64,000 nucleotides of DNA from Chrysomallon squamiferum (lineage: Eukaryota > Mollusca > Gastropoda > Neomphalida > Peltospiridae), in the NCBI GenBank assembly GCA_012295275.1, contig CM022670.1, positions 5,848,661-5,912,660 on the forward strand, read 5' to 3'. The notes under the pieces were generated by a model, which had not been told where the DNA came from, ran no database searches, and saw only the letters and a program-made list of their open reading frames with translations. Below, in pieces: positions 6,691 through 57,512 of the stretch. How positions within the stretch are numbered: position 1 is the first letter of the stretch; each line of letters opens with the position of its first letter. Made by a program: the position numbers and the translations under genes.

Positions 6691-6716
6691 ATTATCAGGT
6701 TGCTATAACAGCAGAT

Positions 6717-7516
6717 TCAGTTACTTGGTGACAATATAAACGAAATGATGATGAGTGGCAGCAGAGATCTAACTGTGTTACCATGGTTACAGAAATTTGA
6801 ATTGCATATGCACACTTCAAAGTCAATTTCTCCAATGTTCTTATCATAACATTTGTCAGAAGTCTGCACCTCACAACCTCGTACAACTTGCACATATCTG
6901 ACACCACTCTCTGAAAATACATCAATAAAACCTCTCATATATATCTTCTTTTTTTTTCTTTATTATTATTCTTTTTTTCTTTACAACATGGAAAACTGTT
7001 TAAACAAGTGTATTCTAAACAAGTACATTTCATAAAGAAAAGCTTTGGACACAAACAAAAATGCAGCAAATTTCTACACACATCAATACACAGTTAACCT
7101 GTTAAAACCAAAGTCATTCTTATTTTACTAAATTTATTAAATTCAGTAGCTTGATATGGCATATGACTAAGGATTTAAAAAAAAAAATCAGTATTTAAGC
7201 TTGGTTGCAGATTATTTTCTAGTTGGTGGACAAGTATTTACCCCATGTTATTCCTCTCATCTTGTTACATGAGCCAGAACATTCCTTAGCTTCCACATTT
7301 GTCAGACGAAAGCTGTCACCACATCTGTAGTCACTCCTACTATTACAGGAAAAGCAGCGAATTGCAGAACCTGCAAATAAATACCTGATATCTTAGACAA
7401 CCCACACGTCTTAAATTTATTTTTAGAACATTCGATAAAGAAATGTTCTTTATGTTAATGTTAGAAATGTTGACTTTCCCCCAATAATTTGTTTTATATA
7501 CTTCAACCATTCTTCT

Positions 7517-9306: not shown

Positions 9307-9371
9307 TATAAGCGGTAGTAATGGATCACGTGACACATTCAGTAACACGACTAGCACGTACTAGAGCGAGG
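9307..9371 (+). promoter_or_regulatory. Probable core promoter of the serine protease gene
   Basis: TATAAG at 9307-9312 is followed at 9326-9333 by the palindrome TCACGTGA, an E-box of the USF/MITF/TFE type, and then the ATG at 9372. A TATA box here would place transcription start near 9335-9340 and leave a 5' UTR of about 35 nt. Motif evidence only. Confidence 0.4.
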
Positions 9372-9616
9372 ATGTTGAAATTGTTACTGATATTTACAGT
9401 TACATCTACATTCACAGGTGAGAAGTTATACTCAAATACATTAATCTCAAATACATTAATTTAAAAATGCGATTTATTAGACAACAAATGTCCGATTCAA
9501 AAAATAAATAAAATAAGTAAAATTTTCTACATCAAATTCTTACAATTTTTAAAATACAAGTTTTCTTCTTTTATTTTCCTTTTATTATTATTATCTCTTT
9601 TTTTTTTAGTAATAAA

Positions 9617-9685
<69 letters not shown>

Positions 9686-11746
9686 GTATATACTCTAACA
9701 AAAAAGAAACGCAAAACTAGATTTGATTAACACAGGGAATATCTATCTAATGGATAAACAGAAAGCAGCAGAATGTTCACATTTTACACAGACTTTCGCA
9801 GTTCATTAATATTGATGGTATTACATTGAAAAGGTTATAGGTTATACCAGTATAGTATCAATACCTTGTGTGCCCACCTCTATGTGGTCTCGCATTACCA
9901 TTATTCATAATTGGAGCGACATGTGGCTGCAAAATTTCATTTCAGTATCTCTCTGCCGTTAAGTTGCCTTGGATGTAAGCCAGGTTGGTCTTGCCAGTGT
10001 ATGAGATTGCTGCCCACACCATCACACTACCACCGCCAAATCTGTCCACTTCTTGTATGCAGTTTGCAGCAAAACGTTCACCACGACGTCTGTAAACTTG
10101 ACATTTTCCATCAGATTGACGAAGCAGAAATCGAGCCTCGTCACTAAACCAGACAGTTCTCCATCGTAATTAAGGCCAGACTCTGGCACTTGACACCATT
10201 GACGTCGTAGTCGACAATGTTGTTGAGTCAAAACCGCTTTTCTTACAGGCCGTCTTGCTCGAATACCTACCTCGCGTAAATGATTGCGGACTGTCTGAGC
10301 CGATATTCTACGCAGACCTAGTATTGCTGAAGCAGTAGAGGTTGCTGTGGTGGTTCTTTCCCGTAGATGAAGTACCCGAATGTAGCGGTCCTGGACCCTG
10401 GTGGTTACACGTGGTCTAATTGATCTGGGACGATCACGTGTTGTTTGGTGTTCCTGGAACCGATACCACAATCTCAAGATGGTGCTTGGGGATACATGGA
10501 ACACCCGGGTTACGGCCGAAAAGGATTCGCCAGCTTGTAAACGGCCGATGGCCTTGTTTCGTTGCGTTTCACTCAGTCGTGGCATTTGTTTGATGTTGGC
10601 TAAGAACAAAAATAAGGAACAGAACTATTCGAAAACCTTGCATTTTTATAACCCTCGTATTCACTTTCATGTGCCGCACGTGCACATGCACTGGTAACGT
10701 GGTTTGCACGCGGAGACGTTTTGGCTAATAAACACGATCATAGCCTTTATTTTGAGTTACCTGCTTTTTGGCGTCTGTAACAAAATCTATACATTTGAAT
10801 CACAAAATGTCATTATATTCATAGTTTGTACATCGATATGTGTCAGTTTACAATAGTTATCTAAGAAATCAACCATTTTGCGGGGTTTGTTTGGGGGGAG
10901 AGTAAATATATATATATCTTTATTTAAATATTACGGCAATTTATAACTAAAAACTTGTTCATCTACTTTCTGAATTTCAAGAATGTTTCGAGATTTTCAA
11001 ATCGCCACGTCTTGTGGGGGGTAAACCTACAACCCCCTCCGCTTACCCATTCATGGCTGCTGTTCAGCTGAAAGACGGGCATCACGTATGTGGAGGTTCC
11101 CTCCTGGATTCGAACTGGGTGATTTCTGCGGCTCACTGTTTTACTGACATGAAGTATGTTTTTGATCTAAATAATAAAAACGTATGAGATTATGTAAAAC
11201 TTTAAAAACAGTTTGTTTTTGTTTTTGTTTTTGTAGTTTATAAAAATATAAAATAAAAACATAAATTCGTATTTATAAACAGTCTACATCATCAGTTTCA
11301 AAACTTCCAAGTGAAATAAAACCACAGTGCAACCATGCGCACATACACACTCGCACACACGCACGCACGCACGCACCTCCATACGTTACATAATCAGATG
11401 AAACAGCTGCAGGAGATTTCCTTTCCTAGATATAACACAACACGTTTGACTAATCGTTGCTACTGGTGTGAACTGTTCTGTGTTGTTCTTGCAGACGACA
11501 AGACTTGCGCGTTGTTCTTGGTGATCACGACAGATCCGTTCTCGAGGCTTCAGAACAAACGTTTTCTGTCAGCCAGTTAAAACTGGTTTGTTTTTACACA
11601 TCTGTTTCATAAAAAAAAAAACACAACACACTCTTTCTTTTTTACCTTATATTTTTTTTTTTTCTCTCTCTCTCTCTGAAGATTTTCATGACAGTGGTTT
11701 TGTAGTTTATTAAACATATTCTCAAAAAACCCAATAAAAATGACAA

Positions 11747-11785
<39 letters not shown>

Positions 11786-13179
11786 ATAAATAAATAAAAT
11801 GTGGATTCAGTTTATCACTTAAAATATTTATTTAGTTTTTAAATTTAAATTCCTCTTCTTATTATTTTATTTATTATTTTTATGCAGCATCCTTTTTTCT
11901 CGGAAACGAATCCTAATGGTTACTTTCTGCCCAATGATCTGGCATTACTCAAACTGTCACACCCTGCCCTCATTAACAGCTACACCGCCCCCATTCACCT
12001 GCCGTCGTCATGTTCATACAACGTAACAGGTCGTAGATGTAAAATACTAGGGTGGGGTCGGCCATCCAGTAAGATCGTTACTGTATTTGGATTAATTATT
12101 ATTACTGATAAATATACTAGAATTTGTTCTACTACTTTCACTAGTACTACTACTAATAATAATAATAAAATATATTTATGAAACAAAAAAACAAAAAAAA
12201 ACAGTAACTGTAGTATTTGCAGTACGAATTTTGATATACCTTTTTATTATGAATGGAAAATGATTTCAATTACTTTAATGACATTGTGAGACAGAGGTGA
12301 TTATTATTTATTATTCCAGTTCAACTTATTGAGTAAAAAGATTAGAAAAAAAACAATCAGGTTTATCTTGCTACAGGTAATATTTATTTTTTATTATTTA
12401 TTTGTGGAGGCGACGCACTCGAGGTGTCCGACGTGCTGCAGGAAGCGGCAGTGACAACACACAGTGTACAGCAGTGTAAGCTCACTTGGGGCAACTACAC
12501 CTACCACGGACAGATCTGTACTTTTGAACCTGGCGTGTCGTCCTGTTCAGTTAGTATAACAGGTTTTTAATGAAGAAACTGTTATCAGCGTAACTGAAAT
12601 CTTCTGAACAGTGTTAGCGTGTTACAACAGATACATTTTCTAAATCCAAACTGACTAGCTGAGATCGTTGTTCAAAAATGTTGTCATTTTACATTTTATT
12701 TTTTATTGAAAAACGGTCCAGGGCCAAATCAAATTTTTGTTTGTTTTTATGTTTTTTTTTTGCTATTACAAATTAATGAGATTTGTATACAGATCAATAT
12801 AATTAACATTCATATCTGATGTGCAAAGCAGTCATTGACAATTTATATAAAAAACAACTCATTATTTAGTGGCTATAAGCAATTTATATCTTCTCTGTGT
12901 GTTTGTGCGTCTGAGTGTTTATAGATTTACAACTTTTCTTTAAAGTAATGTTTATGAAAGTTTTCTAATTTTAATGTTTTTGTTGAATTGTAACATGTTA
13001 GGTTGTTCTGTCTACAGGGTGTCAGTGGTGGTCCACTTATCTGTGTGGACATCAACAACTACGTTCTGGTTGGAGTCAGCTCGTGGACAGACACGCAGTG
13101 TCGTGACTACCCCAGCGTCTACGTCGATGTTGTACAAGAACGTGAATGGATTGAAGCAGTGATGAACAACGTAGATTAA
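9372..13179 (+). CDS. Secreted S1A chymotrypsin-fold protease with Val at position 194
   Basis: Six exons: 9372-9417, 10982-11153, 11495-11585, 11888-12068, 12410-12549 and 13018-13179 (TAA). All phases agree and the product is 263 aa. It starts with signal peptide MLKLLLIFTVTSTFT, then a short propeptide ECFEIFKSPR and the mature start LVGGKPTTPS. His57 is in SAAHC, Asp102 in NDLALLKL and Ser195 in GVSGGPL. All ten chymotrypsin cysteines are present: 1-122, 42-58, 136-201, 168-182 and 191-220. Two N-glycosylation sequons occur (NVT, NYT). Unusually, Asp194, whose salt bridge with the freed residue 16 forms the active site on activation, is Val, and residue 16 is Leu. Position 189 is Ser, 216 Thr and 226 Ser, so the S1 pocket is not trypsin-like. 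The gene could encode an inactive pseudoprotease or an enzyme with unusual activation. Exon 5 uses the acceptor TTTGTGGAG, a weak pyrimidine tract. Neither paralogues nor substrate can be judged here. Confidence 0.88.
9616..9687. repeat. (TTA)n microsatellite
   Basis: About 23 TTA units in protease intron 1, ending exactly where the Tc1-like element begins. Confidence 0.95.
9688..10785 (-). mobile_element. Decayed Tc1-type DNA transposon in protease intron 1
   Basis: The element lies antisense to the host gene. Its transposase begins with MPRLSETQRNKAIGRLQAGE at 10585 on the minus strand. It includes two helix-turn-helix DNA-binding segments of the Tc1 type (VSPSTILRLWYRF, RISAQTVRNHLREVGI). 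At about 10170 the frame shifts. In the new frame VWFSDEARFLLRQSDGK supplies the first catalytic Asp and VMVWAAISYTGKT follows. Further on a stop interrupts the frame after LTAERY. The second catalytic region survives only as NARPHR, with the residues that normally precede it, including the catalytic Asp, deleted. The left boundary TATACTCTAACAAAAAAGAA looks like a terminal-repeat start next to a TA target. I found no good matching right end, so that edge is approximate. The copy is dead. Confidence 0.82.
10022..10585 (-). pseudogene. Tc1-family transposase remnant
   Basis: Open from 10585 down to 10022, but only the first ~140 codons are genuine transposase (DNA-binding and linker). After the frameshift near 10170 the remaining codons are out of frame with the DDE domain. 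No functional product is expected. Confidence 0.8.
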
Positions 13180-13201: not shown

Positions 13202-13235
13202 AATAAAACAAATGAGTCAATGAAATGTTTTTATT
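13202..13235. terminator. Opposed poly(A) signals at the protease / MICU3 junction
   Basis: AATAAA on + at 13202-13207 lies 23 bp after the protease stop codon. AATAAA on - (TTTATT at 13230-13235) lies about 1 kb past the MICU3 stop and is the nearest such motif I found there. If both are used, the two mRNAs end within about 30-60 bp of each other and may overlap slightly. Confidence 0.5.

Positions 13236-14256: not shown

Positions 14257-57512
<43,256 letters not shown>

Follow-up and report, generated by a model that had tools for sequence, protein, structure and literature searches.

Val194 in place of Asp194 in a complete S1A gene shared by two peltospirid snails: a candidate cleavable pseudoprotease

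The window (64,000 nucleotides of DNA from the hydrothermal-vent snail Chrysomallon squamiferum, the whole stretch analysed) carries a digestive-type S1A (chymotrypsin-fold) gene of six exons at positions 9372-13179 of the forward strand. Its product has the His57-Asp102-Ser195 triad and Gly193 that characterize the family; in place of Ile or Val at position 16 paired with Asp194, it has Leu16 and Val194. Textbooks describe the salt bridge between Ile16 and Asp194 as the switch that activates chymotrypsin-fold enzymes. We favour, with a probability of roughly one half, the reading that this secreted-looking S1A homologue has, in peltospirid snails, lost the 16-194 switch and acts as a cleavable pseudoprotease. 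Its support includes the completeness of the V194 gene, an orthologue in Gigantopelta aegis that shares both V194 and L16, and the rarity of both residues among homologues. Val194 looks like an old, preserved alteration, neither a sequencing error nor the mark of a dying gene.

Gene structure and encoded protein

All six exons lie on the forward strand. Exon 1 (9372-9417) supplies the start codon and a hydrophobic segment resembling a signal peptide when judged by eye, MLKLLLIFTVTSTFT, and ends in the donor CAG/gtgaga (splice and cleavage points are marked by a slash throughout); an upstream ATG at 9321 is also in frame with it. Exon 2 (10982-11153) encodes the propeptide cysteine (residue 17), the R15/L16-V-G-G activation site (R15 at 11008-11010, L16 as CTT at 11011-11013), A32, H40, C42, H57 (11134-11136) and C58. 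Exon 3 (11495-11585) is bounded by ttgcag/A and CTG/gtttgt. Exon 4 (11888-12068) contributes D102 (11936-11938), His at position 122, Cys at position 127, an N-V-T sequon, C136 and GWG, and exon 5 (12410-12549) contributes C168, W172, an N-Y-T sequon, C182, S189, C191 and S192; the weak gtggag/ acceptor of exon 5 is supported by a gap-free alignment at this point to the G. aegis protein. Exon 6 (13018-13179) encodes G193, V194, S195, C201, S214-W215-T216, C220 and S226 and ends in the stop codon TAA, with a polyadenylation-signal-like AATAAA at 13202-13207. Every exon junction is GT-AG, and the six joined exons form an uninterrupted frame of 792 nt including the stop (263 aa), with no internal stops or frameshifts. 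A hydrophobic leader is followed by ECFEIFKSPR/LVGG, and the PF00089 profile matches the protein over the whole domain (180.5 bits, positions 2-220 of 220).

Codon 194 (13021-13023) is GTC, for Val, where the family has Asp (GAC or GAT). Exon 5 ends in TCC TGT TCA/gttagt (12549) and exon 6 begins ctgtctacag/GGT GTC AGT GGT GGT CCA (13018), so that splicing the six exons reproduces the in-frame SSC-S-GVSGGPL described in the earlier note. The same 263-aa open frame bears out that note's central claims: Asp194 is replaced by Val in an otherwise complete gene, the three triad residues are all present, and residue 16 is Leu. In most paralogues, as here, Gly193 is the first residue of last-exon homology and follows an acceptor-like triplet; the alignment of the G. 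aegis and window proteins also crosses the exon 5/6 junction with no gap. Other AG acceptors within 12950-13060 were considered and rejected: splicing to those ending at 13001 or 13025 would put the last exon out of frame, and one ending at 12960 brings in an in-frame stop. Recovery of an acid at position 194 by alternative splicing was likewise rejected, these AGs being unhelpful and the window holding no further G-x-SGG exon; in all six frames of the 64 kb, no second G-x-SGG or AAHC match was found.

The claim that all ten chymotrypsin cysteines are intact needs correction. The protein does have ten cysteines, eight of them at chymotrypsin positions 42, 58, 136, 168, 182, 191, 201 and 220 and a ninth in the propeptide where Cys1 is expected, but His occupies position 122, where Cys1 normally finds its partner, and the last of the ten lies at position 127 (residue 145). 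In trypsins, a Cys at position 127 is bonded to Cys232; the window protein has no cysteine after position 220. The cysteine arrangement of the G. aegis protein is identical (LPHTC and ECLPE). Among the matches listed, Cys127 occurs in 21 of 136 other homologues, none of which has Cys122 as well, and Cys122 occurs in 74 of the 136. Because the propeptide cysteine and Cys127 both lack their usual partners, they may be bonded to each other, and the shared shift from 122 to 127 suggests an unusual propeptide tether.

Gly142 and Gly193 are both intact, and Ser189 and Trp172 are chymotrypsin-like. In elastases, the residues at positions 216 and 226 narrow the substrate cleft; were the V194 protein active, Thr216 and Ser226 would be expected to narrow its cleft in the same way.

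Three reverse-strand features were observed around the gene. Intron 1 contains a broken open frame at 10160-10585 (MPRLSETQRNKAIGRL...), whose reading shifts frame downstream and which we take to be a Tc1-type transposase; no inverted repeats were found around it. Cysteine-rich exons at about 6700-7372 presumably belong to a protein resembling the Ly6/quiver-type GPI-anchored proteins, and exons of an EF-hand-like protein at about 14843-16325 resemble, we assume, those of mitochondrial calcium uptake (MICU) proteins.

Rarity of Val194 among homologues and in the own genome

The homologue set comprised 136 other proteins from two protein searches, the second of which gave the best 120 of 869. 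At position 194, 131 of the 133 alignable homologues listed besides that of G. aegis have Asp; one has Gly, one has Leu and none has Val, and the motif looks disrupted in both the Gly and the Leu record. Leu16 is found in none of the 129 alignable homologues listed besides the G. aegis protein, while Thr216 is found in 1 of 109 and Ala32 in 10 of 117 of those listed. Ser32 belongs to the zymogen triad of chymotrypsinogen, His40-Ser32-Asp194, as set out in the available part of PMC4418343; this residue is Ala in both snails.

The survey of the snail's own genome, an assembly of 404.6 Mb in 22 contigs in which the window is C6:5848661-5912660, covered 53 last-exon loci (L040-L092) picked from two sets of genome matches; one of these sets, with 150 of 199 candidates scored, gives minimum numbers. 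Residue 194 is Asp in 48 and Glu in 3 of the 51 alignable last exons, and Val in none. Five paralogue loci were viewed one exon at a time. GDSGGP stands in four of them and GDDGGP in the fifth; IVGG occurs in four (preceded by R in two, N in one and L in one) and HIMHG in one. No close paralogue was found in the assembly, where the other full-protein matches (E <= 0.01) are 28-48% identical.

Two further groups of loci were observed in this survey. L081, L084 and L085 (C15, about 1.145-1.70 Mb), lying among many S1A exons, carry Glu194 (GESGT, codon GAA) and keep Ser195; Glu194 is also reported for complement C2a in the portion of PMC13194640 available. At L059/L095 (C1:45.478 Mb), L070 (C13:23.785 Mb) and L092 (C3:6.569 Mb), Asp194 is kept and Ser195 is replaced by Asp, Tyr and Asn, respectively; these are probably ordinary serine protease homologues.

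A search of the genome for further V194 genes with the pattern GGNGTNAGYGGNGGNCCN gave three matches including the V194 gene itself, compared with seven for a reversed-pattern control, by which standard the remaining two (L009 and L011) do not exceed chance. A word-limited protein search drawing on residues 186-240 returned, out of six candidates, the G. aegis protein alone, which is weak evidence that further V194 relatives are lacking. In a literature search, no paper pairing "GVSGGP" with "serine protease" was found.

The Gigantopelta aegis orthologue: age and constraint

The sole close relative in the protein search, an orthologue as judged by similarity, is a "trypsin-3-like" protein of G. 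aegis (P0001; E = 1.2e-117, 68% identity over 97%), which reads SSC-A-GVSGGPLIC and DER/LVGG. It has V194, L16, A32, S189, T216, S226 and the triad in common with the window protein. Also shared are Cys127, the cysteine in the propeptide and the two core sequons, N-V/I-T ahead of C136 and N-Y-T following W172. Over the core, 165 of 233 residues are identical (71%), with no indels. The deposited P0001 model is longer at the N-terminus, where no signal peptide is evident, and is extended at the C-terminus, with an extra cysteine in each of these parts. An AlphaFold2 model, made for P0001 and not for the window protein, has the chymotrypsin fold (mean pLDDT 80.3, pTM 0.72); its best PDB match is delta-chymotrypsin (TM-score 0.93 by target length), a likeness from which the condition of the active site cannot be read.

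The divergence of C. squamiferum and G. aegis is placed at approximately 66.3 Ma in the part of PMC7736800 available and at 116 Ma (interval 71-184 Ma) in that of PMC7895826. Since both snails carry V194 and L16, these residues are most simply older than the split. A quick tree was built on 48 rows: a selection from 137 proteins, together with the window protein and four rows from its own genome, of which two are incomplete. It pairs the window protein with P0001 (SH-aLRT support 100%) on a long stem of 1.19, with tips of 0.10 and 0.31; the position of the pair among the remaining S1A proteins is poorly resolved. The Asp to Val change most simply falls on this stem.

That codon 194 reflects an assembly or base-calling error, or a rare allele, is scarcely credible. 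GTC is a single base from GAC, and the available text of PMC7142155 describes the published scaly-foot snail assembly as ONT-based with Illumina polishing and the genome as 1.38% heterozygous, but the record of the other species has Val as well, and the adjacent difference (A192 against S192) indicates that one is no copy of the other.

Constraint was gauged by a neutral simulation (substitutions only) of 1000 pairs run to the observed protein identity. Only 4 pairs were stop-free, 22 kept all nine core cysteines and 293 kept the triad; because none of the 1000 did all three, the gene is, by this measure, under constraint. Val194 was retained in 717 of the 1000 pairs, and its conservation alone is therefore not significant. 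The earlier note had asked whether V194 is conserved in related molluscs under purifying selection: G. aegis shares the residue and the gene is apparently constrained, but selection specific to V194 does not follow. Its argument against a pseudogene is strengthened by an orthologue with V194 and L16. A decaying gene, its activity gone and its sequence drifting freely, would explain the loss of a near-universal family residue and the unusual ends of the G. aegis model, but we consider it very improbable given the open frame, GT-AG at every junction, 71% indel-free core identity after at least about 66 Ma and the simulation result of 0/1000.

Conservation is concentrated around the active site: 40 of 44 residues within five positions of H57, D102, S195 and S214 are identical, compared with 125 of 189 elsewhere (Fisher p = 0.0008). 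Among 352 pairs of triad-bearing relatives with 60-80% identity (non-independent, being drawn from 83 sequences), identity averages 0.85 near the site and 0.64 elsewhere; the values for the two snails are 0.91 and 0.66. A calibration with 355 pairs included two scored as not both H-D-S. In the activation domain, 25 of 34 residues are identical compared with 140 of 199 in the rest (p = 0.84), a conservation neither higher nor lower. The active-site region thus appears to be kept as in triad-bearing enzymes, and constraint on the fold could give the same pattern.

Readings of the V194 protein and comparison with known systems

Both Asp194 and Ile/Val16 are lost, and the loss is shared by orthologues in two species, as a pseudoprotease would have it. 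The slowness of thrombin D194A and the lack of detectable activity in PRSS23, which keeps the triad beside Ala194, point the same way. Under this preferred reading, the V194, L16 and A32 changes would predate the split of the two snails. The chain would still be cut at Arg15, its propeptide remaining tethered by the putative bond to Cys127, and the new N-terminus, with no salt bridge to residue 194, would fail to lock the S1 pocket and oxyanion hole in the active state. Free hydrolysis would then be absent or reduced thousands-fold, and the main role of the protein may be that of a ligand or cofactor, which is also the proposal for PRSS23. That R/LVGG is retained suggests that cleavage still matters. 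Three points count against a cleavable pseudoprotease: conservation near the triad is like that of triad-bearing relatives, which a dead enzyme need not maintain; neutral retention is high for Val194 (717/1000) and not rare for the triad (293/1000) with two species compared; and the G. aegis model is irregular at both ends, odd at the N-terminus and extended at the C-terminus.

A serious though less likely alternative is a working, perhaps conditional, enzyme whose site would be ordered without the 16-194 salt bridge, either by hydrophobic packing of Leu16 on Val194 together with a more rigid activation domain or by binding of a partner or substrate. Both lineages retain the triad, G193, S214, Arg15 and LVGG; the triad surroundings are conserved above the rest of the protein, and G142 and G193 are intact. 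A buried ammonium group without a partner is costly, and here it would be left unpaired; the narrowing of the cleft expected from T216 and S226 also speaks against a working enzyme. According to the available part of PMC13194640, hydrophobic packing of Ile16 contributes approximately 4-5 kcal/mol, to which the salt bridge adds 2-3, which makes packing the larger share, but the well-characterised exceptions to N-terminal insertion described there (tPA with Lys156, C2a with Glu194) retain an acid at position 194. In thrombin D194A, as far as PMC6889508 is available, the oxyanion hole is intact through a G43-G193 bond, in favour of a working enzyme, and activity is several thousand-fold lower; the earlier view that Asp194 is needed to build the hole fails for that mutant, while its importance for activity stands. 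A more specific version is rather doubtful: a natural S1A enzyme, of a lineage dating back about 66 Ma or more, that is active without the Ile16-Asp194 switch, its site locked by hydrophobic contact between Leu16 and Val194 or ordered by a bound partner, and its propeptide perhaps tethered to Cys127. The zymogen-locked pseudoprotease and the enzyme with another way of ordering its site, both raised in the earlier note, gain from the orthologue; for the decoy or binding protein also raised there, we found no supporting evidence.

The V194 chain might instead be used uncut, as a plain adhesive or a sink for inhibitors in shell, mucus or oesophageal gland. The signal-like leader and two shared sequons would suit such a role and the pseudo-active site could bind inhibitors, but the P1 Arg and LVGG are retained, and we regard an uncut chain as quite improbable.

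With the triad and cleavage site kept beside Val194, Leu16 and Ala32, all shared by two species tens of millions of years apart, the snail protein is a natural experiment on the dispensability of the switch. Trypsins and chymotrypsin make up most of the best 60 of its 551 PDB sequence matches. It resembles bovine chymotrypsin A in the positions of the pairs 42-58, 136-201, 168-182 and 191-220, in W172 and S189, and in equal C168-C182 and C182-C191 spacings. The two differ at I16/L, S32/A, C122/H, D194/V, G216/T and G226/S, and the snail protein adds Cys127; the Cys at 122 of two-chain chymotrypsin-type enzymes, with their Cys1-Cys122 tether, is absent. Thrombin D194A, in the portion of PMC6889508 available, similarly combines an intact triad with a lost 16-194 ion pair, but its Ala is engineered and Ile16 is kept.

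The natural cases lacking an acid at 194 that we found in the literature are PRSS23 and its paralogue PRSS35, in the part of PMC13194640 available. PRSS23 is described there as a secreted S1-fold protein with the triad, Gln16 and Ala194, no detectable activity, and effects that survive when the catalytic serine is mutated; the substitutions at its switch are conserved across vertebrates. The likeness to the snail protein extends to the small aliphatic residue at 194, a residue 16 that is not Ile or Val, and substitutions conserved among orthologues. In contrast, PRSS23 has Gln16 and Ala194 and lacks His40 (PMC13194640, same part), whereas the snail protein has R/LVGG, Leu16, His40, Val194 and Ser189, and so does not show the residues that mark PRSS23/PRSS35. 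It may be an invertebrate counterpart of PRSS23, useful for testing the origin of cleavable pseudoproteases. As far as its residues tell, the snail protein is like PRSS23 in logic, with different residues.
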